Assembly: GCA_958445065.1 (NCBI GenBank)
Contig: CAUCQW010000023.1
Location: forward strand, 1-35,529
Direction: 5' to 3'
Length of the DNA stretch: 35,529 nucleotides
Source: an uncultured Collinsella sp.
GTDB taxonomy: Bacteria > Actinomycetota > Coriobacteriia > Coriobacteriales > Coriobacteriaceae
This document shows, piece after piece, positions 6,320-23,700 of this stretch (position 1 is its first letter; each line of letters starts with the position of its first letter). Below the pieces are notes generated by a model that worked only from the letters and a program-made list of their open reading frames with translations, was not told where the DNA came from and did not search any database. A program made the position numbers and the translations under genes.

Positions 6320-6344
6320 AAGAGGGCCCCATGAGGGCCCTCTT
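6320..6344. terminator. Bidirectional terminator between convergent operons
   Basis: AAGAGGGCCC (6320-6329) and GGGCCCTCTT (6335-6344) form a perfect 10-bp stem with a 5-base loop. It lies between the stop of the second paralogue (plus) and the stop of the last Tat protein (minus). Confidence 0.85.
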
Positions 6345-6345
6345 G

Positions 6346-9183
6346 CTAGTTCTTATTCGATGAGACGCCGTCGTAGTCGGCTCGCTCCACCCTCATGTAT
6401 ACGCAGGTGTCGCGTGTCGGCGTGACCTTCGTCATCTGGGAATCGGAATCCTGTGAGGCAAGCCATGCTACGGCGCGAAAGCCCGTCCAGGTTCCGTCCT
6501 CCATGCTGGCGTACACCCTGCCCATGGGCCTTGCGAGCGTGACCGACTCACCGAGATAAAGCGCCTTGTGGGCGGGCCCGTCATCGCCGATAGCGGGAAG
6601 GCCGATGCCGTCAAGGGCATGCCTCTCGTCGGACAGCCCGAAATCCGGCAGGGTCCATGATTCGGCAAGCGGGGCGGTCGATTCGGGCGAAGTCCTGAGC
6701 ACAAGCTCCGTGGTGTCCACGGAGTCATCGGTCAAGGCACACCTGAGTGTCAGGCGGTTGCGGGCGTAGAGATGAAGCTCATCGCCCGCCGACAGCTCGG
6801 AACCTCCGTAGGGCGCAGTGAGCCCTTTGTCCGTGAACCAGCCCGTGAACCCTGTGCTCGGGTCCTCATCGAAATGGTCGTTGAGGTTGCAATGGGTTTT
6901 AATAGCGGCAGACGTGGCGTCGTCGCTTGCCGTATGGGGTCCAGCCTGAGCCGTCTCGGTGAACACAACGGACTCATCGTCGATACCGTCGGCATGGTAG
7001 ACGACCTTGATGCCGCCGACATGAACGGGTCCGGCAGATACCGAGCCGTGGAAACGGTGGACGAGCGGCGAATCGAAGTCGATACCGCTTCGCAATGCCG
7101 TGGGGAACACCTGCTGGACCACACAGGAAAGATAGCGTCCCGAAAGCGAATCGAGCTCCAGCTCCGTTAGGCTGAGCTCCCTCAAGCCTTTCGAGAACTC
7201 GCGCCGTACCGTAGCGCCCTTCGGTTTCGGAATCAGATCGACCTGGACGCAGCGCAGCTCGTTGACGCCCTTTAGATCGCCGAAGCCATTAACGCTCGTG
7301 AAATCGAGATCGTGCCCAGAGACAAACCCCCCGGTCCATGACAAATTTGAGTTGAACGCCCTGACCTCAAGGTCGAAATGTTGGGATACCTCGCCGGTAA
7401 GCCATACCTTGACGGCACTCCAGCGCAAGGACTTGCCGCCCTCGCCGATTCGGGCGCCATCTGCGGCGGCATCGCTCCATTCGCCGCCCTTTGCAAGCAT
7501 GCTGTAGCAGATCGAGCCTTGCCAGGGGGAGCCGTCCAGGCGAAGCGAGATCGCCTCTATGCACATTTTGGCCGACATATTCATGCCCACATGCCGATAG
7601 GCGGGACAGTCGGGCATATCACCGAAGTTCGACAGATGGCACGACCCGATGACGGACGCACCGGAGCAGTCAAGCGGAACGTCATCTGTGTCGGCATAAT
7701 ACCAGCGGTACATAAAGTCGGATACGGCAGTCCCGCCATTGTTACCCTTGACGTCCGACCAGTTATGGCACGGCGTACATGAGAGGAGCGGATCCGAACA
7801 CGTCACCGTCTCGCCGGCCCCGATCTCCTTTGACCCGTCATTCAGGCTCAGCGAACCCGTGAACGGGACCTCTTCGACGACCCAGGCCGAGGCACGGTCT
7901 CCCGCCACGCCCCCCTTGTAGCCATTATGGAAGAGGTTCAATTTAAATGGCCTTGTTTGTGTTGCGTTCGGCCTGTTCACGCATAGCCCCGATGCGTCGC
8001 TGATGATCGCGACCGCGCCGTCTTCGAATAGGGACGTTCCTTCGGAAAACGCCTTTGTAACCCACCAGGCGCTCGCCCTCGAAGCGACTCCGGCCCTATG
8101 GATCTCGAACGGCTGCTTGTTCGCGACGTGGTTGAATTCCTTTCCGTCCCAAGGGCCTCCCCCTAGGGCATTGACGGCACAGGACGCGTCGGCCACATGG
8201 GCCGGTCGGAACGTCGTGAGAAACCCGGGGACGGGCCCCCAGTCATCGAAATAGGAATCGTCGCGAACTTTCGAGAATTCAGTCAAGAAGAGCTGATTGT
8301 AATTGCCTTTGAATATCTGCTGGAATAGGCCCGTGCAATCTTTAATTGAGGCATTTCCGACATCCCAGTTCAGGGAGTCATCGTCTGCCGCATGGACGCG
8401 ACAGACGATGACCTGGATGTCCTCGCTGGTTAGGTACGTTTGCTCCACGGTAGAGGTCAGCCAGCCGGTTTGAGAGTGGAGGGCGTCGACCGTCTCGTCA
8501 TGCGAAACCCCCTCGACGTAGATATTGAAGATGTTGAGGTCCGCGCACCATCTATGGGACACGTCCTTCGAGGTGCGCCTGTACCATTTCCCCGTGTCAT
8601 GGTATTGATAGTGCTTCCAGCCGGTATCGTGCCGACCGGTGCCGACCCCAAGTTCCTCATTGGTCAAATTGCCATCAAAGGTGACTATGTTATTTTCCTG
8701 CTCGTCCTCCTTGATTGCCCCGAGGTTATCATGGTCCGCCGCAAACCATATGCGTTTTCCGTTGGGGTTGTAGTTAGTGTCTCCGCAGGCAGTCAGCGGA
8801 TAAAAGGAGAGGTGGAACCATAGCTCGTTCTCATAGTCGCACTCGACCTGTAAATTCAGGGCGTATCGTAGGATCTGGACGTAGGCATAGCGGAAGGCAT
8901 ACCATTCAGTCCATCCATTTGCCCACCCCATGCATTGATTTACGGGATTCGACCTACCCCTGCAGCAGTTGATCTTGCCGTTGATCATCCCGTACATGTC
9001 CCAGGCTCCCTGGTTGATACGGGCATTCTGGCCCCAGTAGTCCCATCCGAGCGCGTCATTGGCGCCCAACAATCCCAGCCCGGCCGCAACTGCCAGGGCG
9101 GCGAACAGGCCCCGCCTGCTAAGCGGGGTTTCCATTAAAGACTTGTCGGCCGGTTTCTCACAATTGCTTTTGTCAGCCTTCAT
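6346..9183 (-). CDS. Tat-exported multidomain lectin-like protein A (last gene of array)
   Basis: A protein of 945 residues; the start has AGGAGG seven bases upstream. A twin-arginine signal (SRRGLFAAL at 22-30, hydrophobic to about 42) predicts export of the folded protein. A conserved N-terminal module (about 48-325) contains CDYENELWFHLSFYPL. Residues 330-440 have ricin-B-like features (DASGLCVN, LNLFHNGY, SAWVVEE). Residues 528-650 resemble clostridial hydrophobic-W (ChW) repeats (YRHVGMN, IEAISLRLDG, VKVWLTGE, LSW). Residues 725-810 resemble the Listeria-Bacteroides/InlB repeat (VVYHADG, GFTGWFTDKG, LHLYARN). A conserved C-terminal domain follows. There is no LPXTG or membrane anchor, so it is either secreted or held by carbohydrate binding. 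It is the only member whose C-terminal domain lacks the poly-G tract (residues 909-918 read ASQDSDSQMT), so its C-terminus is fixed. Confidence 0.85.
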   Translation of the reverse strand: MKADKSNCEKPADKSLMETPLSRRGLFAALAVAAGLGLLGANDALGWDYWGQNARINQGAWDMYGMINGKINCCRGRSNPVNQCMGWANGWTEWYAFRYAYVQILRYALNLQVECDYENELWFHLSFYPLTACGDTNYNPNGKRIWFAADHDNLGAIKEDEQENNIVTFDGNLTNEELGVGTGRHDTGWKHYQYHDTGKWYRRTSKDVSHRWCADLNIFNIYVEGVSHDETVDALHSQTGWLTSTVEQTYLTSEDIQVIVCRVHAADDDSLNWDVGNASIKDCTGLFQQIFKGNYNQLFLTEFSKVRDDSYFDDWGPVPGFLTTFRPAHVADASCAVNALGGGPWDGKEFNHVANKQPFEIHRAGVASRASAWWVTKAFSEGTSLFEDGAVAIISDASGLCVNRPNATQTRPFKLNLFHNGYKGGVAGDRASAWVVEEVPFTGSLSLNDGSKEIGAGETVTCSDPLLSCTPCHNWSDVKGNNGGTAVSDFMYRWYYADTDDVPLDCSGASVIGSCHLSNFGDMPDCPAYRHVGMNMSAKMCIEAISLRLDGSPWQGSICYSMLAKGGEWSDAAADGARIGEGGKSLRWSAVKVWLTGEVSQHFDLEVRAFNSNLSWTGGFVSGHDLDFTSVNGFGDLKGVNELRCVQVDLIPKPKGATVRREFSKGLRELSLTELELDSLSGRYLSCVVQQVFPTALRSGIDFDSPLVHRFHGSVSAGPVHVGGIKVVYHADGIDDESVVFTETAQAGPHTASDDATSAAIKTHCNLNDHFDEDPSTGFTGWFTDKGLTAPYGGSELSAGDELHLYARNRLTLRCALTDDSVDTTELVLRTSPESTAPLAESWTLPDFGLSDERHALDGIGLPAIGDDGPAHKALYLGESVTLARPMGRVYASMEDGTWTGFRAVAWLASQDSDSQMTKVTPTRDTCVYMRVERADYDGVSSNKN

Positions 9184-9253
9184 CTACGCGCACCTCCTAC
9201 AAGGGACGCGCGCGGGCTCGGGACGGAGGCCGCACCTCCGTCCCAGATGATAT
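9184..9253 (-). repeat. 70-bp repeated spacer with hairpin and ribosome site (B/A)
   Basis: This spacer is one of three 70-bp relatives. On the coding strand it holds the hairpin GGGACGGAGG-N5-CCTCCGTCCC (9220-9244), then AGGAGGTG and GCGCGTAG abutting the next ATG. In the reading frame one base off from gene B it has no stop until the TAG that touches the ATG of gene A. Confidence 0.8.
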
Positions 9254-12061
9254 TTACCTCTTTGCGCTGGCGACGCCGTCTGAATCGGCGTAGCGCCACC
9301 TGATGTAGAGCGTGGTGTCCCGGACCATCTTGATGCTCTGCAGGGACGACCCCCCCCCCGCCTTATCGGTCAGGTAGGCGTCGCACACGATATGCCTCCA
9401 GGTGCCGTCTTCCATCTTGCGGTAGGCGTCAGCAGGTGCCGCGAGCGAGATGCGCTCGCCATAGTAGACGGCCATGTGACCGGCGCCGTTGTCGCCGATG
9501 GCGGGAAGCCCGATCCCATCGAGGCTATGGGATTCAGCCAAACCGGTGTAGTCGGGCAGCTCGAGCGCGCCCTCCACGGTTGCGGCATCGTCCTTGGGCT
9601 CGGACACGTAGACGGCGCCCTCCTCCGGCTCAAGGGAACCCTTGGCATACTCGATATGCAGGGTGCAGCGGTTGCGCGCATAGAGATGCAGCTCGTCGCC
9701 CGCCGACAGCTCGGATCCTCCGTAGGGTGCGGTCAGTCCCTTGTTCGTGAACCAGCCCGTAAGGCCCATGCCGGGGTCCTCGTCGAAGTGGTCGTTAAGG
9801 TTGCAGTGCGATTTAATCGCGGAAGACGTGGCGTCGTCGTTTGCTGTATGGGGTCCGGGCTGAGCCGTCTCGGTAAACACAACGGACTTGTCATCGAAGC
9901 CGTCGGCATGGTAGACGACCCTGATGGCGCCGATAAAGAGAGGCGTGGAGGAGGTCACCGTTCCCCTGTAGCGCTGAGCCGCGCTATGCAGTGAATCGGT
10001 GGTCGCGTAAGCGGCGTTTCGCACGAGGCAGGTCTGTGCGTATACGTAGCCTGTGGCATCGTCCGGCAACTGGACCTTAAGGCTATTTGAAAAATCAGCG
10101 AGCAACTTGATAGCGCCGACAGGGCGCGGAACAGCTTCCACCTGGAACGCGATAAGTCTCTCCCCTGCAAAAGTGATCTCGGGGGCATGCTCGGCATCGA
10201 CCTTGAAGGACTCATGGCGCAGTCCCCAACCGGTCTTTTCGGTGCAGCAGCGGATCGAGAGATCGAATTCATCCGATACATCGCCCTCGAGCCAGATCTT
10301 GATTCCCCAGATACGAGATTCATCAGAAAGCTCGGTCCACTGGCCGTCTCTGTAGGTCTCCGACCAGCCTCCATCTGCGCCCTTTAGAATCGAATAGCAG
10401 ATCGAGCCCGGCGCGTCGGCGGAAGCCAGCTTCAAATAGAACCCTCTCATGAGGTTAGCCGCCGCGAAGGGAAAGCCTATCAGGCGGTTGGCGGCAGTCT
10501 CCTTGAACCAATGCAGTCCCCAGGGGGCCTGCGAGGCGCCACCGACGATATCGAGGGAGGCTGAACGGACCCCGGCATCCGAATCGCACAGGATAAATCT
10601 CGTGAGGTGTTCAACGGAAAGGGTCTTATAGATATCAATCGGCGTACAGCTCGAAGACGGGTCCCCTATCTCAATCTCTTTGGAGTCATTCGATGGCTCC
10701 TTGAACGAGACATCGCCCACGAACACGACCTCGTCGGCTTTCCAGTCGACACTTGAAACACCCTTGGTGCCGTTCCGGGTGCCGCTATGCCATAGGCAGA
10801 CATCCGCGCCGTCGCTTTTAACCGACTTTGTGAGCGAGATGCAGAGCCCTGTTTCATTGCTCACGATCTGCGAATAACCCTCCTCAGACTTGAGGCTATC
10901 GGTCACCCAGAAATTGCAGAAATTCGAGGCTTGCGGATTATGCCAGACCCAGAGTTTCTCAAAGTAGGCATTTGAGAAGCCGGAATCCACATTGGGATAC
11001 GCATCTGCGGACAGTCCCTTTGAGATGATCCCTCGACCCGACTCGGCGTACAGGGTTGAGTTCCAGCCCTTGAAACAGACGGATTTCAGGCAGTGTAGGA
11101 AGTCGCCGTACTCATCGCATGCGTTGCCGAGCTCCACGGCAAAGTTGCCGTCAGTCGTGCCGGCTCCGTCCTTCTTCTGGCAAAGCCTCGACCACTCTCC
11201 TGAACCATCGCCGCGAATCACCAGGTCAGAGTCGCTGTAGCGATTGGAAAGGGATACAATCGCACCAAATAGGTCATATCGGTTCCTGATGGCGATCTTC
11301 TCGAGCTTTACGCTCAGGTCCCCGCCCGCATCGTCATGCGTATTCATCCCCTTTTGCACGCATGCAATATGGCCCGCGTTGTTGAAGTCAAACGGTGTGT
11401 CCGCGCCATATCTTTGCCCGAAGGCGTTGTATCCGTTTACGACGATGTTGAACAGATATATGTTCGCCCCCAGCGTTCTGGTCGACTCCGTCGCGCCTTT
11501 CCTCTCCAGCCATCCGTAGCTGGGATAGCCAAAGGTGTGCATGGCGGTATCGTGACGGCCGTATCCCGCGCCTAGGAATGTATTATCGAACGCGAAGCGT
11601 CCCGTCTCGGTCTTCCAGTAGGCACCGTTCCAGTAGTACTCAATATAGTTGTCTTGATAGCGTGGGTACCAAAGCCGGTGCGTGTTGAGGTTATTCGTGT
11701 CGCCGCATTGTGAAAACGGCTGCATGCAACACCATTCGTATAGGGGGTTTGAATAGTTGGAAGAGAGCTCCACTGCCATCGCGACTCGAAGTGTCTGGCC
11801 TGCATGGGCATCCCATTCGAGCCAATGCGTCGCACAGCCGAAGCCGTTACCGTTGTAAAGGGCTCCGTTATTCCAGTCACCCCAATAGTAATGACCGCCG
11901 CGCCCCGCGCCATGGCTATCATCCGTATCCGCGTATGCAAGGCCGGCAAGGCCGAGCCCGGCAGCAATCGCCAGCGCGGCCAGCAGGCCGCGTCTCGATA
12001 TCGGTGTTCCATTTTTCTCAGTGTCTGCTCGGTCCTCATTCCGAACATCGAGACCGTTCAT
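9254..12061 (-). CDS. Tat-exported multidomain lectin-like protein B
   Basis: A protein of 935 residues; GGGAGGTG precedes the ATG. The Tat signal is at 22-30 (SRRGLLAAL), with a likely signal-peptidase site after AYA (residue 44). It has the array's common layout: a diverged N-terminal module, a ricin-like region with ETGLCISL and VCLWHSGT, a ChW-like region with GFYLKLASADAPGSICYS and IKIWLEGD, an InlB-like repeat (VVYHADGFDD to LHLYARNR) nearly identical to that of protein A, and the conserved C-terminal domain. The C-terminal domain contains a 10-G run (coding strand) encoding AGGGSS. At this length the frame continues through MVRDTTLYIRWRYADSDG to a natural stop AKR, 70 bp before gene A. 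It is probably a surface carbohydrate-binding protein. Confidence 0.85.
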   Translation of the reverse strand: MNGLDVRNEDRADTEKNGTPISRRGLLAALAIAAGLGLAGLAYADTDDSHGAGRGGHYYWGDWNNGALYNGNGFGCATHWLEWDAHAGQTLRVAMAVELSSNYSNPLYEWCCMQPFSQCGDTNNLNTHRLWYPRYQDNYIEYYWNGAYWKTETGRFAFDNTFLGAGYGRHDTAMHTFGYPSYGWLERKGATESTRTLGANIYLFNIVVNGYNAFGQRYGADTPFDFNNAGHIACVQKGMNTHDDAGGDLSVKLEKIAIRNRYDLFGAIVSLSNRYSDSDLVIRGDGSGEWSRLCQKKDGAGTTDGNFAVELGNACDEYGDFLHCLKSVCFKGWNSTLYAESGRGIISKGLSADAYPNVDSGFSNAYFEKLWVWHNPQASNFCNFWVTDSLKSEEGYSQIVSNETGLCISLTKSVKSDGADVCLWHSGTRNGTKGVSSVDWKADEVVFVGDVSFKEPSNDSKEIEIGDPSSSCTPIDIYKTLSVEHLTRFILCDSDAGVRSASLDIVGGASQAPWGLHWFKETAANRLIGFPFAAANLMRGFYLKLASADAPGSICYSILKGADGGWSETYRDGQWTELSDESRIWGIKIWLEGDVSDEFDLSIRCCTEKTGWGLRHESFKVDAEHAPEITFAGERLIAFQVEAVPRPVGAIKLLADFSNSLKVQLPDDATGYVYAQTCLVRNAAYATTDSLHSAAQRYRGTVTSSTPLFIGAIRVVYHADGFDDKSVVFTETAQPGPHTANDDATSSAIKSHCNLNDHFDEDPGMGLTGWFTNKGLTAPYGGSELSAGDELHLYARNRCTLHIEYAKGSLEPEEGAVYVSEPKDDAATVEGALELPDYTGLAESHSLDGIGLPAIGDNGAGHMAVYYGERISLAAPADAYRKMEDGTWRHIVCDAYLTDKAGGGSSLQSIKMVRDTTLYIRWRYADSDGVASAKR
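9350..9359 (-). repeat. Homopolymer tract, 10 C (10 G on the coding strand), in gene B
   Basis: A run of ten C at 9350-9359. At ten G the gene reads AGGGSSLQSIKM and keeps the conserved C-terminus. The same codons in genes C and D have nine. Runs of this length slip readily during replication. Confidence 0.9.
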
Positions 12062-12131
12062 CTACGCGCACCTCCCGCAAGGGACATGCGCGGCCTGGGG
12101 ACGGAGGCCGCGCCTCCGTCCCGATTCGTAG
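12062..12131 (-). repeat. 70-bp repeated spacer with hairpin and ribosome site (C/B)
   Basis: The second copy of the spacer: hairpin GGGACGGAGG / CCTCCGTCCC (12098-12122 on the plus strand), then GGGAGGTGCGCGTAG before the ATG of gene B. As sequenced, gene C is translated through it in the shifted frame. Confidence 0.8.
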
Positions 12132-14980
12132 TTACTTCTTTGCCGTGGCGACGCCGTCCGAATCGGCGTAGCGCCACCTGATGTAGAGCGTGGTGTCCCG
12201 CACCATCTTGATGTTCTGCAGGGACGACCCCCCCCCGCTCTATCGGTCAGGTATGCGTCGCACACGATATGTCTCCAGGTGCCATCGCCCATCTTGCGGT
12301 AGGCGTCTGTCGGCGTAGCGAGCGAGATGCGCTCGCCGTAGTAGACGGCCATGCGGCCGGCACCGTTGTCGCCGATGGCGGGAAGTTCGATACCGTCAAG
12401 GGCATGTGACTCGATATCGCCCGAAAAGTCCGGGAGTCCAAGGGCACCCGAGATAGATGCCGCCCCGTCCTTCGGCTGCGATTTATAATCGACCCCATCC
12501 TCCGGTCTCAGGGATCCGTCGGCATAGTCAATCCTCAGCGTGCAGCGGTTGCGGCCGTAGAGGTCGAGTTTCTGGCCTCTGTCGAGGTCGATGCCTCCAA
12601 AGGAGTCAATAAGCTCCCTGGTCGTGAACCAACCGGTGAAGCCGCTAGAAGCAGTGTCGCCAAAATGCTCGTTAAGGTTGCACACGGCCTTTACCGCCGC
12701 CTGCGTGGCGGCATCGGATGCCGTGTACTTGCCCGGGTCAGCGTGATCGATATAGACGATATGCTCATCGTCGACGCCGTCAGCGTAGTAGGTGATGAGC
12801 GATTTCTTTGCGCAATACTTAACGCTGGGTGTGACGATGGTGCCGTGGAAACGGTGGACGAGTGGCCATACCTCGGCTGTGCCTGAGCGCTTCTCGGTTT
12901 TGAATTCCTGCTGGACGGCACAGCTCAGGTACATTCCGTCCACAGCACCGGCCTCGTCCTCGGTAAGTTCGAGCATCTGCGCGTCACGCGAGAACTCCTT
13001 GACGAGCACGGCATCTGTCGGCTTCGGTATAAGGTCGACCTGGATGCAGCGCAAGGTCTTGCCCGCCACGCCCACTGCAGGGGCGCTTTCAGCATCCGTG
13101 GCGCTCACATAAGTTCGACACCACGACACATCACTTTGGAACGCGCGAACCTCAAGGTCGTAGTGACGTGCGACCTCACCCTGGAGCCAGACCTTGATCT
13201 GGCTCCAGCGCAGGCTGGCGCCGCTTTGACCGATCCACTCGCCGTCGATGCGGGCGTCAGACCACGTCCCGCTGTCGCGGGATAGCGCCATGTACCCGAT
13301 AGATCCCTCATAACCCGTTCCCTTGAGGTAGAGACGGAACGCCTCGAGCACGTAGTCCGGGTTGAAGTTCGTGCCAACGTGGCGGTAGGCGGGGACTTCC
13401 ATGAAGTCGCCCGTTTTGGAGATGTGGGCCTGACCCATGACCACGGCGTCCTCATCGGGTGCTGGATCTGGCGTCTTCGCAGCGTACCAGCGATAGATCA
13501 TCGCAGTCGGCTTTCCCATCGTTTCCCACAGCTCCTTTTTGGCAGGATAGCAGGTGGCGAAGGGGTCGCCGCAGGTCGGGGCCTGGGGCCAAGTGATTTC
13601 TTCGGCGCCACTATTTAGCTCTAGCTTGCCTGTAAAGGGAACCTCCTCGATGACCCATTCGGAAGCCTTATTCTTTTGCGTATCCGAATCATAGCCATCA
13701 TGCCACATGAATAGCTGTGTCGGTTTGGCGGTCGTGCCGCCATAGCGGTTCACAGCCTGCCCCGACGCATCGCTGATGACCTGTACGGCATTTTTAGTGC
13801 CGTCGGAGTTCCATTTATCGACAAGCCACCATCCGCAGGTGCGGTCAGCGACAGTATATTTGCAGATGACGAATTCGCGTTTGGTGCTCGTCCTGATGTC
13901 AGTTCCGTCGAAGGGGCCGCCGCCCCACGCATTGAGGGCCGCAGAGCCATCCACGACATGGGCGGGACGGAAGGTGATGAGATAGCTTTGGTCGGCATCC
14001 GCATAGTTGCCGCCAATCTCCTGGTAGTTCGCGAACTCAGTCAGAAACAGCTGGTTCAAATTCGGCTCGGGCCTGGTCTTGTCATTTCCCGCAAAGAGCT
14101 CCTGCTGGTAGATCGGCGTGCGATTTGATGACTTGGCGTTGCATACGTCCCAGTTGAGTGAATCGTCAGCGGCGGCGTGAACACGGCAGACCATCCCGAA
14201 GAAATCCTGACGCGACCCGTGCGGAATTGCGGGGAAGCTGGTCGCGCACCAGCCCGTTCCAAATGCCTTGGCGCCCCATTCGCTGTGCCAGACCTTATCG
14301 ATTCTGATGTCTCGGAGCTCGAGCCATGCTGCGAAACTGTGCGAAAAACCGCTGCCCGTTCGGCGATACCACTTGGAAGTGTCCTTGTAGGAGCGGCGCT
14401 CCCACCCGGTGTTGAATGTCGCTTGCTGGCCCGGGGACGGACAACCGGCATAGTTATTCGTGAGGTCGCAGTTAAAGTCAAGAATCTTATGGGAGTCATC
14501 GGGGGCATCCTCATAAATGCGCCCGCGGTTGTCGTCCTCGCCGTTATCGTACCAGAGGCGGTGAGAGGTGCCGTAGTTTGTGTCGCCGCAGGCCGAGAGC
14601 GGATAGAAGCTGAGGTGGTACCACAGCGTGTTCTCATAGTCACACTCGATTTGCAGGTTGAGGGCGCAACGGAGCTGCTGGGTTCCCGGCCAACATGTCC
14701 ATTCGCACCAGCTTGTTGCATAGCCCATGCACTTGGCGCTGGGGTTCGTATACGACCTACTCCTGCCAACATGGCCTTTTAGCATGCCGTATGCGTCCCA
14801 AAATCCCTGTCCAATACCGGCGTTTTGGCCCCAGTAGTCCCAACCAAAAGCATCATCGGCGCCAAGCAATCCCAACCCAGCTGCGACTGCTAAAGCGGCG
14901 AACAGGCCTCGTCTGCTAATCGGGGTTTCCTTTAAGGTCTTATCGGCAGCGGTCTTGCTTTCGTATTTCTCAGCCTTCAT
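12062..14980 (-). CDS. Tat-exported multidomain lectin-like protein C, C-terminus frameshifted at a poly-G tract
   Basis: As sequenced it has 972 residues. The Tat signal is at 22-30 (SRRGLFAAL); the N-terminal 130 residues are close to protein A (WDYWGQN, CDYENTLWYHLSFYPL). It has a ricin-like region (DASGQAVN, LFMWHDGY, ASEWVIEE), a ChW-like region (YRHVGTN, IKVWLQGE), an InlB-like repeat (ITYYADGVDD, GFTGWFTTREL, LDLYGRNR) and the C-terminal domain. In the last domain a run of nine G (12228-12236) shifts the frame after DRAGGG, replacing the conserved end with 54 Arg/Ser/Pro-rich residues ending HVPCGRCA. With ten G the protein would have 949 residues and end ATAKK at 12132. The shifted stop TAG touches the ATG of gene B. 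It is either a phase-variable form or a homopolymer sequencing error. Confidence 0.85.
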   Translation of the reverse strand: MKAEKYESKTAADKTLKETPISRRGLFAALAVAAGLGLLGADDAFGWDYWGQNAGIGQGFWDAYGMLKGHVGRSRSYTNPSAKCMGYATSWCEWTCWPGTQQLRCALNLQIECDYENTLWYHLSFYPLSACGDTNYGTSHRLWYDNGEDDNRGRIYEDAPDDSHKILDFNCDLTNNYAGCPSPGQQATFNTGWERRSYKDTSKWYRRTGSGFSHSFAAWLELRDIRIDKVWHSEWGAKAFGTGWCATSFPAIPHGSRQDFFGMVCRVHAAADDSLNWDVCNAKSSNRTPIYQQELFAGNDKTRPEPNLNQLFLTEFANYQEIGGNYADADQSYLITFRPAHVVDGSAALNAWGGGPFDGTDIRTSTKREFVICKYTVADRTCGWWLVDKWNSDGTKNAVQVISDASGQAVNRYGGTTAKPTQLFMWHDGYDSDTQKNKASEWVIEEVPFTGKLELNSGAEEITWPQAPTCGDPFATCYPAKKELWETMGKPTAMIYRWYAAKTPDPAPDEDAVVMGQAHISKTGDFMEVPAYRHVGTNFNPDYVLEAFRLYLKGTGYEGSIGYMALSRDSGTWSDARIDGEWIGQSGASLRWSQIKVWLQGEVARHYDLEVRAFQSDVSWCRTYVSATDAESAPAVGVAGKTLRCIQVDLIPKPTDAVLVKEFSRDAQMLELTEDEAGAVDGMYLSCAVQQEFKTEKRSGTAEVWPLVHRFHGTIVTPSVKYCAKKSLITYYADGVDDEHIVYIDHADPGKYTASDAATQAAVKAVCNLNEHFGDTASSGFTGWFTTRELIDSFGGIDLDRGQKLDLYGRNRCTLRIDYADGSLRPEDGVDYKSQPKDGAASISGALGLPDFSGDIESHALDGIELPAIGDNGAGRMAVYYGERISLATPTDAYRKMGDGTWRHIVCDAYLTDRAGGGRPCRTSRWCGTPRSTSGGATPIRTASPRQRSNYESGRRRGLRPQAAHVPCGRCA
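12228..12236 (-). repeat. Homopolymer tract, 9 C (9 G on the coding strand), in gene C
   Basis: A run of nine C at 12228-12236, one shorter than the homologous run in gene B. It moves translation into the alternative C-terminal frame. Confidence 0.9.
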
Positions 14981-15050
14981 CTACGCGCACCTCCCGCAAG
15001 GGACATGCGCGGCCTCGGGACGGAGGCCGCACCTCCGTCCCGATTTGTAA
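14981..15050 (-). repeat. 70-bp repeated spacer with hairpin and ribosome site (D/C)
   Basis: The third copy of the spacer: hairpin arms at 15017-15026 and 15032-15041, then GGGAGGTGCGCGTAG before the ATG of gene C. Gene D as sequenced reads through it to the TAG next to the ATG. Confidence 0.8.
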
Positions 15051-18000
15051 TTACTTCTTTGCCGTGGCGACGCCGTCCGACTCCGCAAACGCCCATACGG
15101 AATATACGGTCGTGTCGCGTTCCATCTTGATAGTCGTGAGAGGCGACCCCCCCCCGCCTTATCGGACATGTAGCCCTTGAAGACGAGGCGGCGCCACGTT
15201 CCGTCCTCCAGCTTGGTGAAAACGTCAGCCGATCCGGCGAGCGTTACAGACTCGCCGCGGTAGAAGGCCGCGTGCGCCACCCCGTCATCGCCGATGGCGG
15301 GCAGGTCGATCTTGTCGAGCCGGTGTTTCTCATTACGTCCGGTAAAGTCGACCAGGCCAAGCGCGCCGTCAATGACCTCGGCCCTATCGCTCGGCTTCTT
15401 CCTGAAGACGGTTCCAGCGTCGGGCTCGACCGATCCTTCCGCATATTCGATACGCAAAGTGCAGCGGTTGCGCCCATACAGCTTCAATGCGCCCTTCTCG
15501 GGAATCTCAAGGGAGGCAGCTGGATTGACTAAAGCGGCATCCTTGAACCATCCAGTGAAACCTGAGGCGGCATCCTCCCCGAAATGGGCATCGAGATTGC
15601 ATGGCTTCTTCCCAGCCGCCTCAAGTGCCGCATCTACAGGCGCGTAGGTGTCACCTGAATGGACATTGGAATCTCGATATACAAGGTGAGCCTCATCGAT
15701 ACCGTCCGCGTAGTACTCGACGCAAACAGTTTCGACCTTGCTCGGCTTTGACACCACAGTTCCCTTGTAGCGGTCGGTCCAGACCGTCACGTCTGTGAAG
15801 GGGACGGTGCGAATGCCGAGCATTGCGGCGGCGTAGATATAGCCCGCCCCCCAGGACTCGTCGACCGTAAAATCCTCGTCGCCTGAGAACTCGCGCACGA
15901 CGCGTCCGTTTTCCGGTTTCCTGATGAGATGGACATTCAGTCCGGCGATCTTTCCGGTCAGCCCTTCGGAGCGGGCGGGCACGCCGACCATGGACCATAC
16001 CTGTCCGGTGTGGTCCGCGCGCTCCGCTTCGCAGGATACGTTGGCGCCCTTGGTGTCGGAGGCGTAGGTCATGAGGCCGCCCGTCCATTGGCTGCGGACA
16101 AGGACGCCCCCCTCCGCTTCCTCTATCTGCCATTTCGGGCCCAAGCCGTCGTTTCTCTGCCAAATCTGTACGTTGTGGTTCGAATAGACGTCAATGAGCC
16201 AACCGTAGGTATTCGCGATATAGGTGGTGCCGGACACGGTTTCCTGGACGAGGAACTGCTGCGCGATAGACGAGTTCGTCGTCCAGAGCTCGACGTTCTG
16301 GCCGTTGACGTTGCCCTTGTTGCCCCCATCGTAGACATCGAGGCAGAGCCCGGAGGGGGTCCGGAACTCAAACCAGCCGGTCTGGGGAGATTCATCGCCT
16401 GATGTGATGTTCGCGCCCGCCGCCGGCGCGCCCTCGGCGGTGCCGGAATTGGAATAGTACGGCCCAACCCAGCCGAGGCCGCCCACGAAGGCGCGATAGC
16501 AAAGGTCGTAGTGCTTCGAGATCTCGCCCTCGAGCCAGACCTTCACCTGCGCGATGGGCGACGAGGAGGACTCGAGGATGCGGGCGCCGTCGGAGCCCTC
16601 GATCCACTCGCCTCCGGCCTGGGGACGTGCGGCATAGTGGATGGAGCCCGGGAACTTCGAGCCCTCGATCCTCATTTCGAGATTATGGATTGAATGCCCG
16701 CCGTGCGGCCAGCCGATATGGCGGTGCGATGGACATTCCAGCTGCTTGCTATCCCAGGTGACGACGCCGCAGGATGCCATAATGACCGCATCCGAGTCGT
16801 CGGTGACCTCAGCCTCAACGTCAGTCATGTAGAGCCGGAAGATGGGATAGACGGGCAGGGAGGACTCGTTGACGGAGTCCCTGATATAGCCCAGGGGTAG
16901 GATCATCTGCGTATCGTCGCCGATCCTATTGTGCCACCCCTGAATCTCAACAGTCTCGCCCACCTTCATGAGGTCTTTCGACAGGGCGACGCTGCCGTGA
17001 CAGCACGCCTCCTCCAGCATCCATTGGGCACCCGCCTGCTGGCCCCATCGCCCGGGGCAGGCCGCGCTGTAGACCTGGGGGTTGGCGCCCTTGCCGGTGC
17101 TCCAGAGATCCAGCCTCTGTCCGTCGGCGTCAGAGGTGAAAAACCAGCACTTGTGATCCGTCTCGCTCGTAATGGACGGCTCGTGGTGGACCCACCAAGA
17201 GTTTGTGAGGTTGGTGGACTCGCGGTTTCGCCAGATTTCCGCATGTCCCCTATTCATGGTCGGAGCCGTATGCCCCTTGTTGTCCAGGCCGCGATCGAGG
17301 CCTGGACCGAGCATATTCGCGACGCAGAAGGTGAACGTGCCCCTGCCGTCATTTTTGTTGGGCTTCATCATCCAATTCTGGTTGACGCCCTCGTAGTCCG
17401 TCCAGATGACGACCTGACGCCCATTCTCATAGGACGCGATCGCATTGTTGTTGGAGTCGACGACCCCCTGGGAAAGGTCCAGCCTCATCTCGGGCGCGCA
17501 TACCGGGATGATCTTGAAGATGCCGCCCATGATGGACATGTCGTTCTCGAGATATATCTTCTCGACGTTGATGGCCATGTCGTTATCTGGTGCATAACGG
17601 CGAAACTTGATGTCGTCTGGGTTTTTATTTGCAGGAACTCCGTTCACCCAGACATTCCAGATATCCATGCGAGCCTTAACTTTCTCATCATGGGGTTTCG
17701 CCTGGCGACGAACGAAGGTATCGCATCCGGGACCCTCGTAGAACCCGTTGACGAGCCAGCCCTTGCTCCAGCCGCTGTTGATGAGGTTGCCCTGGAACCA
17801 GCCGACCTGCCTATCGTTGAGGAAGACATAGCTTTTGTTGTCGTCGCCGTCCGATGCGCCCAGCCAAAGGGGTTTGCCGTAGCTCGAGTCGAGGGAGGCG
17901 CAGTAATAGAACGGGCGAAAGACGATGTGGTCATAGAGCTCATCGGACCAGTCGCACTCAACCACGCAGGCGAACTCGGCCTGCAGCTTCTGATAACCGT

Positions 18001-18343
18001 ACCTATCGACATTCCAGGCGCCGGCATTCGTCGACTTCCCGAAGAAGTAGTCGTTTACCCCGCGATCGGCATGGGGATGCGTGATCTCGCCCGAGATATG
18101 GCCGTTCACCCATTTGTTGCCGATCCACTGCCCGAGCCCGAAATTCTGCGCGGCGAGGGCATATGCCTGGGTGCTCGATAGGATGCCAAGCCCGGCTGCA
18201 ACCGCGAGGGCCGCGAAGAGACCGCGGCGCGAAATGGGCGCGGAGATTCCGGCGTCGGATCCGTCGCCATGGGGTCGGCCTTCATTTCCGGTCGCCTTGT
18301 TCGCTTCAAAGCGGGCGATTCCCTTTTTATTTCGGGAGCCCAT
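14981..18343 (-). CDS. Tat-exported ricin-lectin protein D, C-terminus frameshifted at a poly-G tract
   Basis: It has 1120 residues as sequenced. I chose ATG 18343 (GAGGGG eight bases upstream, one base after the preceding stop) over an ATG at 18379 inside the previous gene. The long N-region is followed by a Tat signal (SRRGLFAAL at 38-46, with a likely cut near QAYA). A first ricin-like module spans about 285-445 (RLDLSQG, VNQNWMM, QRLDLWSTG, AQWMLEE). A ChW-like region is at about 538-625 (SHRHIGWPHGG, VKVWLEGE, GLGW). A clear ricin-B domain is at about 655-785 (GLCLDVYDGGNKGN, VELWTTN, QIWQRNDG, QVWSM). An InlB-like repeat is at about 875-960. Nine G at 15147-15155 shift the frame after DKAGGG; ten G would give 1097 residues ending at 15051. 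It heads the tandem array and is probably a glycan-binding surface protein. Confidence 0.85.
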   Translation of the reverse strand: MGSRNKKGIARFEANKATGNEGRPHGDGSDAGISAPISRRGLFAALAVAAGLGILSSTQAYALAAQNFGLGQWIGNKWVNGHISGEITHPHADRGVNDYFFGKSTNAGAWNVDRYGYQKLQAEFACVVECDWSDELYDHIVFRPFYYCASLDSSYGKPLWLGASDGDDNKSYVFLNDRQVGWFQGNLINSGWSKGWLVNGFYEGPGCDTFVRRQAKPHDEKVKARMDIWNVWVNGVPANKNPDDIKFRRYAPDNDMAINVEKIYLENDMSIMGGIFKIIPVCAPEMRLDLSQGVVDSNNNAIASYENGRQVVIWTDYEGVNQNWMMKPNKNDGRGTFTFCVANMLGPGLDRGLDNKGHTAPTMNRGHAEIWRNRESTNLTNSWWVHHEPSITSETDHKCWFFTSDADGQRLDLWSTGKGANPQVYSAACPGRWGQQAGAQWMLEEACCHGSVALSKDLMKVGETVEIQGWHNRIGDDTQMILPLGYIRDSVNESSLPVYPIFRLYMTDVEAEVTDDSDAVIMASCGVVTWDSKQLECPSHRHIGWPHGGHSIHNLEMRIEGSKFPGSIHYAARPQAGGEWIEGSDGARILESSSSPIAQVKVWLEGEISKHYDLCYRAFVGGLGWVGPYYSNSGTAEGAPAAGANITSGDESPQTGWFEFRTPSGLCLDVYDGGNKGNVNGQNVELWTTNSSIAQQFLVQETVSGTTYIANTYGWLIDVYSNHNVQIWQRNDGLGPKWQIEEAEGGVLVRSQWTGGLMTYASDTKGANVSCEAERADHTGQVWSMVGVPARSEGLTGKIAGLNVHLIRKPENGRVVREFSGDEDFTVDESWGAGYIYAAAMLGIRTVPFTDVTVWTDRYKGTVVSKPSKVETVCVEYYADGIDEAHLVYRDSNVHSGDTYAPVDAALEAAGKKPCNLDAHFGEDAASGFTGWFKDAALVNPAASLEIPEKGALKLYGRNRCTLRIEYAEGSVEPDAGTVFRKKPSDRAEVIDGALGLVDFTGRNEKHRLDKIDLPAIGDDGVAHAAFYRGESVTLAGSADVFTKLEDGTWRRLVFKGYMSDKAGGGRLSRLSRWNATRPYIPYGRLRSRTASPRQRSNYKSGRRCGLRPEAAHVPCGRCA
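15147..15155 (-). repeat. Homopolymer tract, 9 C (9 G on the coding strand), in gene D
   Basis: A run of nine C at 15147-15155, in the same codons (AGGG) as the runs in genes B and C. Confidence 0.9.
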
Positions 18344-18344
18344 A

Positions 18345-18728
18345 TCAGTATCCCCTCGACTTGATGGCAGACAGGCCACAGCACAAGGCCACCGCCAGAT
18401 AGACGGCAGCCTGGTACAAATCCAGCCTCATGGATGCAAGCACGCATGCCGCGAGCCCGAACAAGGATGTAAGTGCGTAAAAGCGCCAGTCGTCGACCTT
18501 TCGCGCTATAAGGGCGAAGGTAAATATGGCGACGGGGATCCAGATGGTCTCAACAGACCCTCGCGACAGGTAGAACAGGGCGGCCCGCTTGCCCATCACG
18601 GGCATGATGTTGACGATGATGGAATAGGCCGAGTATGCGCAGGCGGGCAGGAGGGTCGCGGAAGACACCGCCGCCGAGAGTGAGAGCTCATCCTCATCGG
18701 GCCCCATAAGTGAAAGGTTATCCAGCAC
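18345..18728 (-). CDS. Small four-helix membrane protein, first gene of the Tat-lectin operon
   Basis: A protein of 127 residues with a GTG start at 18728; GGAGG lies seven bases upstream. After an acidic N-terminus (GPDEDELSLS) it has four hydrophobic segments at about 19-40, 53-75, 81-99 and 104-122, with a KRAALFYLSRGS loop between the first two. I recognise no family. The stop is one base before the ATG of protein D, so the two are coupled. Its position suggests a role in export, anchoring or modification of the Tat proteins, but this is inference from context only. The promoter probably lies in 18729-18921, which also carries the third phased repeat. Confidence 0.8.
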   Translation of the reverse strand: MLDNLSLMGPDEDELSLSAAVSSATLLPACAYSAYSIIVNIMPVMGKRAALFYLSRGSVETIWIPVAIFTFALIARKVDDWRFYALTSLFGLAACVLASMRLDLYQAAVYLAVALCCGLSAIKSRGY

Positions 18729-18921: not shown

Positions 18922-19941
18922 ATGTCCCTAGAAATCGGCACGTCTATCGGAGTATTCGGATATATGTTTAACAAATTATTCAATTTGCTTGCTGGGACCA
19001 AAAAGGAAAAGAACCTCGCCGATAGCTCGCGTACAGATATGCCCCTGAGCCGGGAATTACAGCGGCAATTTGTCCGCAGCTATATCGAACAGACCGCCTC
19101 CGAGCGCGAAGGCGGCATCCCGAATGGCGTGTACGAGACTTCTATCGTCTCTTTCGTGTTCAACCATGAAAGGATTGAGGGCAGCTCCCTCACGGAATGG
19201 CAGACAAGGACGGTTTTCGAAACCAGGGATACCGTTCTCGCGGACTCGACTACCCCCGGAAACGTCCGCGAGACGGCAAACCATACGAAAATGTTCGATT
19301 TCCTTTTCGATTCGCTGGACAGGGAGCTGACCCCCGAATTCATCAAGGAGATCCATCTGCAACTCATGGCAGGGGTAATGGACGTGCCCGGCCAGTGGAA
19401 GATTCTGGGCAACGGCGTGGGAAGCGTCATCACGGCACGCCCAGAGGAGGTTCCCTCGCTAATCGACCGCCTGGTCACGGAATACAACAAATACGAGCCG
19501 TCCCTGGAGAACATCGTCAGGTTCCACGTTCGATTCGAGACGATCCACCCCTTCCCGGACGGTAATGGAAGAGTCGGAAGGGCCATCGCCTTTCGTGAAT
19601 GCCTGCGAGCCGGACTCATTCCCTTTATCGTGACGGACGCCTCGAAGGAAACCTATTACGCCTCCCTAGATGAGTTCAGGGCGGGGACTACAACACCACT
19701 TATTTCCTATGCCGAGGCAATGCAGGTCGATTTCGTTTCCACGATAGCGCCCATGCTCGCCGACCGCTCTCTGTCCGACAGCCTACTTGGGAAATTGGGC
19801 ATAGAGAGGCCGAACTTCAAGGATGACGCCGGCTTTGTCGGCCCTTCCACAAAATCGTTGAAATCCAGCCTCGAATCAGTCGAAAACTCTGGATCCGAGA
19901 TCGAGTCCGATCATAAGACGCATCGCACTCGTCGGATTTAG
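18922..19941 (+). CDS. Fic-domain protein (AMP-transferase type), copy 1
   Basis: A protein of 339 residues. The complete Fic active-site motif HPFPDGNGRVGR is at 209-220; in this family His209 is the catalytic base, and the enzyme moves AMP or another nucleotide phosphate onto hydroxyl groups of target proteins. The upstream inhibitory segment reads NHERIEGSS (81-89). Class II Fic proteins normally have Ser or Thr four residues before the Glu; here that position is His82, so self-inhibition may be weak or different. The N-terminus (GVFGYMFNKLFNLLAG) is mildly hydrophobic. The C-terminus has STKSLKSSLESVEN and a basic tail ending HRTRRI, matching other proteins in the window. The start at 18922 has only a weak GGGG site; ATG 18964 is an alternative. 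No separate antitoxin gene is seen. Confidence 0.85.
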   Translation: MSLEIGTSIGVFGYMFNKLFNLLAGTKKEKNLADSSRTDMPLSRELQRQFVRSYIEQTASEREGGIPNGVYETSIVSFVFNHERIEGSSLTEWQTRTVFETRDTVLADSTTPGNVRETANHTKMFDFLFDSLDRELTPEFIKEIHLQLMAGVMDVPGQWKILGNGVGSVITARPEEVPSLIDRLVTEYNKYEPSLENIVRFHVRFETIHPFPDGNGRVGRAIAFRECLRAGLIPFIVTDASKETYYASLDEFRAGTTTPLISYAEAMQVDFVSTIAPMLADRSLSDSLLGKLGIERPNFKDDAGFVGPSTKSLKSSLESVENSGSEIESDHKTHRTRRI

Positions 19942-20365: not shown

Positions 20366-20494
20366 TTATTTGCCTCCGGTAGCTCGTTGACGAGGGCGCG
20401 TTCGCGCCATTGTTCCGTAGTCGCCAGATGGCCGGCCGGATGGCTATCTCTATTAGTTTACTACGGGCAGGTTTGCTGGGGCTCGGAAACGCCT

Positions 20495-20506
20495 GAACAC
20501 TTGTTC
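20495..20506. promoter_or_regulatory. LexA-like palindrome GAACACTTGTTC
   Basis: An exact GAAC-N4-GTTC palindrome about 200 bp before the VaFE start, inside a wider pairing CTCGGAA...TTCCGAG. It is identical over 15 bases to the site at 2495-2509. The 20366-20710 interval has no gene; this site and the phased repeat are its only recognisable elements. Confidence 0.45.
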
Positions 20507-20578
20507 CGAGTCCATATCCAATCGAGCGCTCCCGTTAGTGTGGAAACGATAGGTCCGTTCCGCACCGCACGCGCAAAC

Positions 20579-20599
20579 TGTCACCCTGTGGCACCAAAT
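20579..20599. promoter_or_regulatory. 10-bp-phased direct repeats GGTGCCA/GGTGACA (copy 4, minus orientation)
   Basis: Read on the minus strand, GGTGCCA-CAG-GGTGACA with the same 10-bp period. Its distance to the VaFE start (112 bp) nearly matches the 117 bp from copy 1 to the pilin-like start, with the same orientation relative to the gene. Confidence 0.6.
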
Positions 20600-20710
20600 C
20601 GGTGCTCATGGCGCCGATGCCGGCGGTACGTTAGACCATGGGGGCGCATGCCAATAAATGTAGCCAGAAATCCGCGTCCCCTCTCCGGTAACCGAGAGAA
20701 TGGAGCAGTC

Positions 20711-23700
20711 ATGCGACCTGGAGGAAAGATGAAGGAGTGCGCCGGCAAGCTCTTCGGCCGCATCGGCGCCCGTCTCAAGAAAGGCGCGGTCATCGGTACG
20801 GGCGCGGTGCTCATCGCGAGCCAGGTGCTCTCCGTCGTGCCGGCGCCGACCGCGGCATATGCCGCATCGTCCGAGACGATCACTCGCGGCGAGCGCGTGA
20901 ACTACGGCGGCTACTACATGTACAATTCGACGACCTCTGAGGGTACCCCGGCGATCTGTCTTGACCCGGCGAAGCGCCACCCGCTCGATGCCATGACGGC
21001 CACCGCACAGCTGCCCATTGAAACCGACTGGACCAAATGCTACACGGGAGGCGGCGGTGATCAGACCCGGATAGACCGCACCGACGGGATGGCGAGGGTC
21101 CTCTACTACGGTCCCACGGGTCCTGGTTTCGAGGAGGCGAAGGCAAAGGGCCTGTGGAACTTCAACTGGTACGACGGCACACCCCTGGACTACAGCAAGA
21201 TGCTCGCTATCCAGCACATCGCCCTCTCGGCCCTCTCGAAGAGCTCCAGCCAGTACGGTATGCAGGGCACGACGGCCGCGTTCCGCAACTGGTGCTATAA
21301 GACCATCCTCTACTACAACGGCAATATCAACGCGGGCACATTCCTTGCAAATCTGGACAAGAATCTGCCGGGACCCGCACCCCAGTCCTTCAAGAACTCA
21401 ATCTACTTGGTCAACTACGGCACCGGCACCCAGTGCCTCATCACCTTCCACAACAAGGGCAAGATGAAGCTCAAGAAGAGGAGCTCGAACCCCGGCATCT
21501 CCGATAACAACCCCTGCTACTCGCTCGAGGGTGCGACCTACGGTGTCTACACCGATTCGGGCTGCACCCAGCAGGTGGGCACCCTCTCATGCAACGCCTC
21601 CGGCGACTCCAACGTGATCGATATCGCGCCGGGCACCTACTACGTCAAGGAGACCAAGGCGGGAAAGTCCTATGCGCTCGATGAGGGGATCCATAAGGTG
21701 AACGTGTCGGGTGGCCAGACGGCGACCGTGAACGTCACCGATGCCCCCCAGAACGACCCTGCCGACATGCTGGTCGCCAAGGTCGATGCCGAGACGGGCA
21801 AGGCCTCCCCGCTCGGTGCCGGCACGCTCGCGGGCGCGGAGTTCACCGTCAAGTACTACGACGGCTTCTACACACAGGAGAACCTGCCCGAGAAGGCCAC
21901 GAGGGCCTGGATTCTGAAAACGGATGAAAACGGCCGAACTTCTCTTGCGCGTGTAACACTTGACAAGGACAAGTACTTTGTTTCGGGTGACAGCTTCTAC
22001 ACAAGCACAAATGGGAACATAACCCTTCCAATTGGTACTGTAACCGTTCAAGAGACAAAAGCTCCAAGCGGGTACCTGCTTTCTGATAATTCAGTTCACA
22101 TTCAACAAATTACATCTAACACTACGACAGAGCGTGTAACGACCTTCGTTGAGCCCAGCGAGGACGCCCCCACTGTGCGCGAGCAGGTGAAGCGCGGGGA
22201 TATCGCCTTCAACAAGGTCCACGGCGAGGATATGACCGGCCTCGCGAACGTCCCGTTCAAGATCACCTCCAAGACCACGGGCGAGAGCCACATCGCCATC
22301 ACCGATGCGAACGGTATCCTGACGACCGAGTCCTCGGCCTGCCCGCATACCCAGAACACCAACGGTAACGATGCGGCACTCAACGCCGACGGCACCCTCG
22401 ATGAGTCGAAGCTCTCCATCGACAACGGCCTGTGGTTCTCCGGATCGAAGGGCGCGCAGACGACGGCTGACGACTCCAAGGGCGCGCTTCCGTATGACAC
22501 ATACACCTTCGAGGAGCTCCGCTGCGCCTCAAACGACAGCCTCAACCTCGTCAAGTTCGAAGTGACCGTGAGCCGCGACGCCTACACTATCGACCGCGGC
22601 ACCGTGGACGACAACCCCATCGAGATTGGCACGACCGCGACCGACGCCGCAGACGGGGACCATAAGCTCCTGGCATCGAACCAGGCCGAGATCGTCGACA
22701 CGGTTACCTACAAGGGCCTCAAGAAGGGCCTGGAGTATGAGCTCTCCGGCACCCTCATGGACGCCAAGACCGGAGAGGCGCTGAAGGACGTCGCCGGCAA
22801 GGAGATCACCGCCACGGCCAAGTTCACGCCCAAGGCATCCAGCGGCAAGCAGAAGGTCAAGTTCAAGTTCGATGCCACGCTTCTCGGTGGCCATAAGGCG
22901 GTCGTGTTCGAGCGCCTCTACCTTGAAGGCAAGATCCAGGCGTCACACGAGGATCCCGAGGACGAGGACCAGACTGTCGAGTTCCTGCCCGTCAAAATCG
23001 GAACCACCGCGACCGACGCGGCAGACGGGGACAAGACCATCGGGGTCGGCAAGGCCGTAACCATCGAGGACGAGGTCTCCTACGAGAATCTCGCCACGGG
23101 CCGCGAGTACACCGTCACCGGCACGCTGATGGATTCCGAGACCGGAGAACCCCTGAAGGACGCAGGGGGCAATGCCGTGAGCGCATCCACGACCTTCGAG
23201 CCCGAGAAAACCGAGGGTAAGGTGAAGGTGACGTTCTCGGTCGACACCTCGACCCTTTCCAATAAGAAGCTCGTCGTGTTCGAGAAGCTCGCGGCAGATG
23301 GCAATGTCATCGCCAGCCATGAGGACCTGACGGACGAGGGGCAGACCGTCGAGGTCGTTCCTCCCGAGATCGGCACGTCTGCGGCCGATGGCGCCGACGG
23401 CGACAAGGAGATCACCGCCGACGGCAAGGCCTCCATCATCGACGCCGTCAAGTACACGGGCCTCGTCCCCGGTACCGAATACGAGCTCCAGGGCACCCTC
23501 ATGGACGCCGAGATCGGCGAGGCGCTGAAGGGCGCCGATGGCAAGGAGATCACCGCCACGGCCAAGTTCACGCCGCAGTCCCAGGACGGCACCCAGGACG
23601 TGACCTTCACGTTCGATGCAAGCGAGCTGGGCGGCGCCAAGGCGGTCGTATTCGAGAAGCTGTTCGTCGACGGCACGCTAATCGGATCCCACGAGGACCC

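Follow-up and report, generated by a model that had tools for sequence, protein, structure and literature searches.

Candidate C-terminal phase variation and a possible frame-gated translational relay in an array of lectin-like genes from an uncultured Collinsella sp.

In this study, we analysed a 35,529-nt stretch of DNA from an uncultured Collinsella sp. (GCA_958445065.1, contig CAUCQW010000023.1, forward-strand positions 1 to 35,529; hereafter the window), whose list of open reading frames (ORFs) contains four successive minus-strand genes, read in the order D, C, B, A. The best explanation of these genes is an array of lectin-like proteins with twin-arginine (Tat)-type leaders in a Collinsella-type gut bacterium. 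Three of the four carry a run of nine or ten G near the 3' end, and related public proteins and assemblies have this run at different lengths. Polymorphism of tract length in public assemblies is well supported, and it most likely arises by slipped-strand mispairing, an established mechanism at homopolymeric tracts. With moderate confidence, we propose that the C-termini of these proteins are phase variable and that, in addition, the frame set by each tract gates translation of the next gene in a relay along the array. The relay part of this proposal is drawn from sequence and RNA folding. A change in a tract may matter for the downstream gene as much as for the protein's own tail. The genes and tracts of the array, in order of reading, are:

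14981..18379, minus strand: gene D, first of the array; Tat-type leader and ricin-B-like lectin domain; assembled with nine G, giving an alternative tail
15147..15155, minus strand: G9 tract of D, a coding-strand run
12062..14980, minus strand: gene C; Tat-type leader; assembled with nine G, giving an alternative tail
12228..12236, minus strand: G9 tract of C, a coding-strand run
9254..12061, minus strand: gene B; Tat-type leader; assembled with ten G, in frame to its own stop TAA at 9254-9256
9350..9359, minus strand: G10 tract of B, a coding-strand run
6346..9183, minus strand: gene A, last of the array; G tract absent at the site, both alternative frames running into stops

Tract lengths and the three C-termini

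The three runs lie exactly where the original prediction, made from the letters of the window, had placed them and have exactly the lengths that it gave, encoding AGGG at a matching point of the C-terminal domain of B, C and D, gene A being without a run there. Beyond these tracts the window has no further run of at least seven G or C, and its eight-G words number seven against 2.09 expected, a count reached in one of 100 shuffles; GGG makes up 16% of the glycine codons in eight window genes. Each tract is close to the 3' end, with 31 in-frame codons preceding the stop (G10, G9 and G9 tracts). As had been predicted, ten G leads to the ending ..RDTTLYIRWRYADSDGVASAKR and nine G to about 54 Arg-rich residues. 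The TAG stop of this tail is immediately 5' of the next ATG. The prediction was right that this alternative frame is open in all three genes and ends at the same place, and it missed the third frame (eight or 11 G), which is likewise open and has its stop overlapping the next ATG (ATGA). In predicted structures the tract immediately precedes the terminal strand of the C-terminal domain: in the B model this strand occupies 917-924 when the gene is in frame, its blocks having a predicted local distance difference test (pLDDT) score of 50-65, and the alternative tail of the C model is without confident structure (pLDDT 25-35).

The evidence for length variation comes from 201 distinct public proteins, made up of all 76 from one search, the best 120 of 375 from a second and the best 120 of 413 from a third, which were assigned to families by their pre-tract residues and thus independently of frame. 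Their tails comprise 84 of the nine-G type (P0078, in which the anchor is absent, being an 85th), 27 of the eight- or 11-G type, 55 in frame and 34 of the A type, where the 55 take in the eight that end like A as well as one or more (P0016 among them) that show no glycine run. The database holds no identical proteins, so that the following counts by family show that variants exist and are not population frequencies:

Tract-less A family: 34 in frame, 0 nine-type, 0 eight/11-type
D family (121 proteins): 37 in frame, 64 nine-type, 20 eight/11-type
B/C family: 3 in frame, 17 nine-type, 3 eight/11-type
Further family ECWL: 7 in frame, 4 nine-type, 4 eight/11-type
D-like proteins ending like A (eight proteins): 8 in frame, 0 nine-type, 0 eight/11-type

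The phase-variable C-termini of the original prediction are supported by assemblies and proteins, all three frames being present in tract-bearing families whereas all 34 proteins of the A family are in frame. Tract lengths of the 121 D-family proteins, deduced from residue patterns on the assumption of an uninterrupted run, are G6 in three, G7 in eight, G8 in 17, G9 in 61, G10 in 28 and G11 in two, with two unassigned. The D family contains 17 groups whose members agree in all 250 residues up to the DGTW anchor, which is about 15 residues ahead of the tract; in 15 of these groups more than one frame was present. The proteins P0108, P0111 and P0110, corresponding to G10, G9 and G8, are identical across 927 pre-tract residues, and their longest contigs have 9685, 9684 and 9683 bases, as if differing in the tract alone. 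In addition, the same D tract is G9 in one of two Collinsella aerofaciens assemblies (L001) and G10 in the other (L002).

Sequencing or assembly error, by which the true length would always be ten and all other lengths miscalled, was the main rival in the original prediction; an error in sequencing or library preparation is made unlikely by these public proteins and assemblies as a cause of the length differences, and we give it a low probability. It would fit with all variation falling at a G homopolymer, and work on G tracts in Bifidobacterium cautions that the lengths given in annotations may be incorrect (PMC9187656). It would not account for nine G being about twice as common as ten in the D family, for lengths that appear to span six to 11, for the conserved junction or for a run that is retained against codon drift. 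The spread of lengths in the D family exceeds that which short-read consensus error is known to give.

The drift is evident at fourfold sites, identity at which is 27-39% among B, C and D and 43-44% between D and the C. aerofaciens D genes; the latter two genes are 97% identical to each other, and 91% at fourfold sites. D has 19 GGG codons at shared glycines, only seven of which are GGG in each C. aerofaciens D gene, yet the whole run is kept. Simple codon drift was rejected as the source of tract conservation in view of this fourfold-site divergence and of the turnover of GGG beside an intact run. Since the whole run was kept despite drifted synonymous sites, selection appears to maintain it. 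Gene conversion between 3' ends may contribute to its retention, and the 3' ends of B and C are nearly identical.

Neutral decay, in which redundant genes would tolerate frameshifts at a mutable site as pseudogene-like lesions, has a still lower probability in our judgement. The last array gene of L002 does have an unrelated frameshift, at a G8 run, and L001 has none there. Decay is nevertheless difficult to reconcile with the absence of early endings, as past the anchor the alternative tails have 69-73 residues in 84 of 84 nine-type and 70-72 in 27 of 27 eight/11-type proteins, none being shorter (0 of 111 ending early), or with a junction that was kept while synonymous sites drifted. The homologs are also long, 194 of 201 having at least 900 residues, a proportion to be read with the limited length range returned by the search, which hides strongly truncated proteins.

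The alternative to which we give least weight is programmed recoding, whereby ribosomal frameshifting or transcriptional slippage would produce all tails from one genotype and DNA length would be of minor importance. Long G runs can promote slippage, a point in its favour, but the DNA itself differs between assemblies, which recoding neither needs nor predicts.

Junctions and the proposed relay

The proposed relay is based on the junctions between the genes. The features of the three window junctions, followed by the hairpin behind the last gene, are given below, all hairpins being from RNA folding:

15051..15053, minus strand: TAA ending D in the ten-G frame, 70 nt before the ATG of C
15017..15041, minus strand: hairpin H1 of the D to C junction
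14984..15011, minus strand: hairpin H2 of the D to C junction, holding the C Shine-Dalgarno (SD) GGGAGG (14990-14995)
14978..14983, minus strand: TAG-ATG of the D to C junction, the nine-G-frame stop abutting the C start; the eight/11-G frame stops as ATGA
12132..12134, minus strand: TAA ending C in the ten-G frame
12098..12122, minus strand: hairpin H1 of the C to B junction
12065..12092, minus strand: hairpin H2 of the C to B junction, holding the B SD (12071-12076)
12059..12064, minus strand: TAG-ATG at the B start, stop and start adjacent
9220..9244, minus strand: hairpin H1 of the B to A junction
9187..9214, minus strand: hairpin H2 of the B to A junction, holding the A SD (9193-9198)
9181..9186, minus strand: TAG-ATG at the A start, stop and start adjacent
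6320..6344, minus strand: terminator-like hairpin immediately 3' of gene A, then CTTTAG

Five junctions were compared, the three of the window and one each from L001 and L002. In all five the ten-G frame ends at a TAA 70 nt before the next ATG, the nine-G frame stops as TAG-ATG, and the eight/11-G frame stops as ATGA on the next start. Stop and start are therefore adjacent or overlapping, as in coupled genes, in the two alternative frames, and the stop of the ten-G frame is instead 70 nt away. The alternative tails of the public proteins, 84 of the nine-G and 27 of the eight/11-G type, all have lengths that would bring them to the junction. Gene A and its counterpart in L001 have stops in both alternative frames.

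Folding of the intergenic RNA places H1 directly 3' of the ten-G stop and H2 around the SD of the next gene, and predicts that a stable hairpin buries this site. The three window junctions have folding z-scores of -4.1 to -5.8 (0 of 200 shuffles each), and the 42-nt H2 region has -19.2 to -22.1 kcal/mol. The whole start regions have -34.5 to -45.2 kcal/mol at five of five junctions, two of 46 control starts being at -30 or lower. The cost of opening the SD is 8.9-10.6 kcal/mol at all five, with a control median of 3.2, and its mean unpaired probability is 0.17-0.33 at the junctions, the control median being 0.42. When the sequence is treated as covered by a ribosome to 12 nt past the ten-G stop, the SD is predicted to stay closed (0.2 unpaired); when it is covered to just before the SD site, the SD is predicted to open (0.81-0.89 unpaired). 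At full length and E<0.01, a covariance model of the junction matched tract junctions only, namely the three of the window and, among 43 genomes, a single one in each of G001 and G002. Further matches in these genomes were weak (G043, E 0.025; G016, E 0.030), and with more than 40 genomes the covariance search applies stricter filters. The window also gave partial reverse-strand matches (best E 0.0018), each of which corresponds to one palindromic hairpin of its three junctions.

Substitutions within the hairpins were reconstructed from 108 protein tails (50 distinct), a procedure that leans to the reference; the set holds 85 nine-G-type tails but only 23 of the 27 eight/11-G-type, and one divergent sequence is possibly misaligned. 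By this reconstruction an A-U pair of H1 became G-U in five, G-C in two and C-G in one sequence, and an A-U pair of H2 became G-U in 14 and G-C in three. Differences are about two-fold more frequent at unpaired than at paired positions (0.103 vs 0.053). These compensatory changes in H1 and H2 are only supportive; as strong evidence they were rejected, being deduced from proteins.

Based on these features, we propose the following course of events. In D, C and B, the hypermutable G tract close to the 3' end would change in length, most likely via slipped-strand mispairing. With ten G the gene would be in frame, yielding a complete protein and leaving the ribosome-binding site of the next gene closed. 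Out of frame, the protein would end in a tail that is basic and unstructured, and the ribosome would translate across both hairpins, open H2, stop on the next start and re-initiate on the next gene. Ribosomes would thus travel down the array until they reach the first in-frame gene, the genes behind it being largely silent, and the last gene, A, would have no need of a tract. In the assembled state (D nine, C nine and B ten G), the tails of D and C would be altered, translation would first yield a complete protein at B, and A would be low.

Potentially, the array acts as a stochastic selector in which the 3' tracts set where polycistronic translation ends, giving one complete lectin-like protein per cell, a further step that we regard as tentative and rather doubtful. 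Such a cell would make the first in-frame gene's product complete, faulty versions of the genes before it and little of the genes behind it. Because the first in-frame gene would stop the relay, expression of that paralog would be near-exclusive, without a recombinase, invertible DNA or a promoter switch; near-exclusive expression would also require that the tailed proteins are inactive.

Plain C-terminal phase variation, in which slippage exchanges a complete last strand for either of two basic tails and thereby alters binding, export or stability, is a possible though rather unlikely alternative. The hairpins would then be ungated by the tract and would serve mRNA stability or ordinary coupling. 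This explanation accounts for the same evidence of tract variability and has precedents in Helicobacter canadensis (PMC2823697) and Neisseria gonorrhoeae (PMC5320596). It leaves unexplained that the stops of the two alternative frames fall precisely at the next start, as well as the predicted burial of the SD and the lack of a tract in the last gene.

Several points weigh against the frame-gated relay combined with phase variation. Two open alternative frames are common, occurring in 9-24% of simulated cases and at 10 of 115 ORF ends, and openness was therefore rejected as proof on its own, so that the argument rests on the combination of features. The five junctions have common ancestry. Burial of the SD is unusual but not unique to them, two of the 46 control starts costing at least 8.9 kcal/mol and two having an unpaired probability of at most 0.1, below that of the junctions; the controls themselves were taken from mechanical ORF finding. 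The two outer pairs of the extended H1 are broken in 14 and 11 of the 50 reconstructed sequences, the loop-adjacent pair of H2 in six of 50 and other pairs in 0 to 4, L001 and L002 have a mismatch within H1, and the compensatory changes, deduced from protein tails, are few. In addition, the frame counts come from a non-redundant database and differ in kind from population frequencies, and the structure models are of low quality (mean pLDDT 53 and 66), with low pLDDT in much of the last domain of C before the tract.

Array proteins, related loci and other tracts

The leader SRRGLxAALAxAAGLG, which by eye on the alignment of A-D combines a twin-arginine with a hydrophobic stretch, suggests that all four proteins are exported as Tat substrates, and they may be located at the surface. 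Alignment shows that the C-terminal domain is common to A, B, C and D. In Pfam, D matched the ricin lectin family PF14200 with 31.6 bits (curated cut-off 25.6), and A, B and C had no lectin match at E 0.01. For C, a predicted structure with a mean pLDDT of 66 is similar to beta-trefoil lectins, among them Marasmius oreades agglutinin (MOA) and ThreeFoil. Weak Pfam matches among 29 aligned homologs were to ChW (13), PF14200 (four) and Flg_new (one), and no sequence match to solved structures was found at E 0.1. Leaders and C-terminal domains are variously combined in P0063-P0068 and P0029-P0061, including a D-type leader with a C-type C-terminus and one A-type ending with several leaders, which suggests recombination between paralogs or assembly chimeras. 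Two divergent neighbours of the array lie on the plus strand:

18922-19941, plus strand: Fic-domain protein
20387-24556, plus strand: 1389-residue adhesin-like protein with thioester, SpaA and T-Q ester-bond domains

The nearest array-bearing loci are L001 and L002. Relatives of the C-terminal domain were found in three of 43 genomes of the genus Collinsella and in the same three among 65 of its family, and one listed homolog, P0131, is named from a Collinsella sp. genome. A search of genome contigs with the alignment identified five loci, two from Collinsella, two from Gordonibacter and one a partial match; protein B alone as query found no relative in the genome contigs. The two Gordonibacter loci have no run of at least seven G or C, nor does L006, the one distant relative found in viral contigs. 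The tract-context pattern occurs in 13 stretches of viral contigs, none of which matched A-D by tblastn at E 1e-5. The genome G005 has two family relatives, both without a G run at the site, and beside them another exported protein has a G9 run immediately ahead of its Tat-type signal (L012:2340-2348, G005:C2).

Other tracts were observed in Collinsella. The last array gene of L002 has a G8 run at a different site (L002:12572-12579), where L001 has G6 then A; this run appears to be an independently arising tract, at which the gene is out of frame. Runs of G9 or G10 occur just before the pilin segment in genes with Flp/Tad pilin-like N-termini and Pfam matches below cut-off (L049:2095-2104 and 4981-4989, G001:C90; L037:2016-2024, G002:C23), which are candidate phase-variable pilins. 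A G8 run just behind a signal-peptide-like stretch (L046:2028-2035, G001:C44) is followed by an 835-residue open frame in another frame, and this gene looks switched off in the assembly. At what is apparently one locus, a C run has nine bases in G002 (L036:1907-1915) and 12 in G001 (L047:2070-2081), a difference of one codon.

Comparison with known systems

If the relay is real, a single-base indel in one gene would control translation of the next, a chain of tracts would pick one paralog per cell, and a slippery tract and a coupled start, each ordinary in itself, would together make a new kind of variable expression. Collinsella, a genus of the human gut, would then be likely to have contingency loci. 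Simple reporters and existing metagenome reads could be used to test for variation in these exported lectin-like proteins. Among the titles and abstracts listed by searches of open-licence papers, we found no description of a tract-gated relay, nor of a phase-variation or homopolymeric contingency locus in Collinsella.

The array proteins are similar to ricin-B-type beta-trefoil lectins (PF14200, PF00652) in the D domain, which is above the PF14200 cut-off, and in the C model; the absence of a match in A, B and C sets them apart. With regard to regulation, Bifidobacterium breve is described as having a poly-G ON/OFF switch of sortase-dependent pilus expression (PMC9187656). As in that system, the array would vary by poly-G replication slippage in a gut commensal, the B. 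breve genes being for surface structures. Unlike the ON/OFF tract, the array tract is at the 3' end, and a protein would be made in every state.

A closer likeness exists to the C-terminal phase variation of H. canadensis and N. gonorrhoeae, for which the reports describe a homopolymeric tract at the 3' end, with three frames leading to different C-termini, and cases in which one frame fuses with the next gene (PMC2823697, PMC5320596). The array likewise has its tract at the 3' end and three frames that would give three C-termini. It differs in having a tract at the same codon of one paralog after another, and in that both alternative frames terminate at the following start codon, past a hairpin that is predicted to sequester the ribosome-binding site of that next gene.

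Translational coupling by SD unmasking has known examples and is normally fixed. Termination-reinitiation with adjacent or overlapping stop and start codons is described as a form of translational coupling (PMC3711429, PMC5972666). The array resembles coupled genes in having adjacent or overlapping stops and starts, with a downstream site that is predicted to be closed unless translated through. Unlike fixed coupling, that of the array would be switched on and off by tract length. C-terminal phase variation is thus already known, and the possible gating of the next gene by the tract is the element that the array would add to it.

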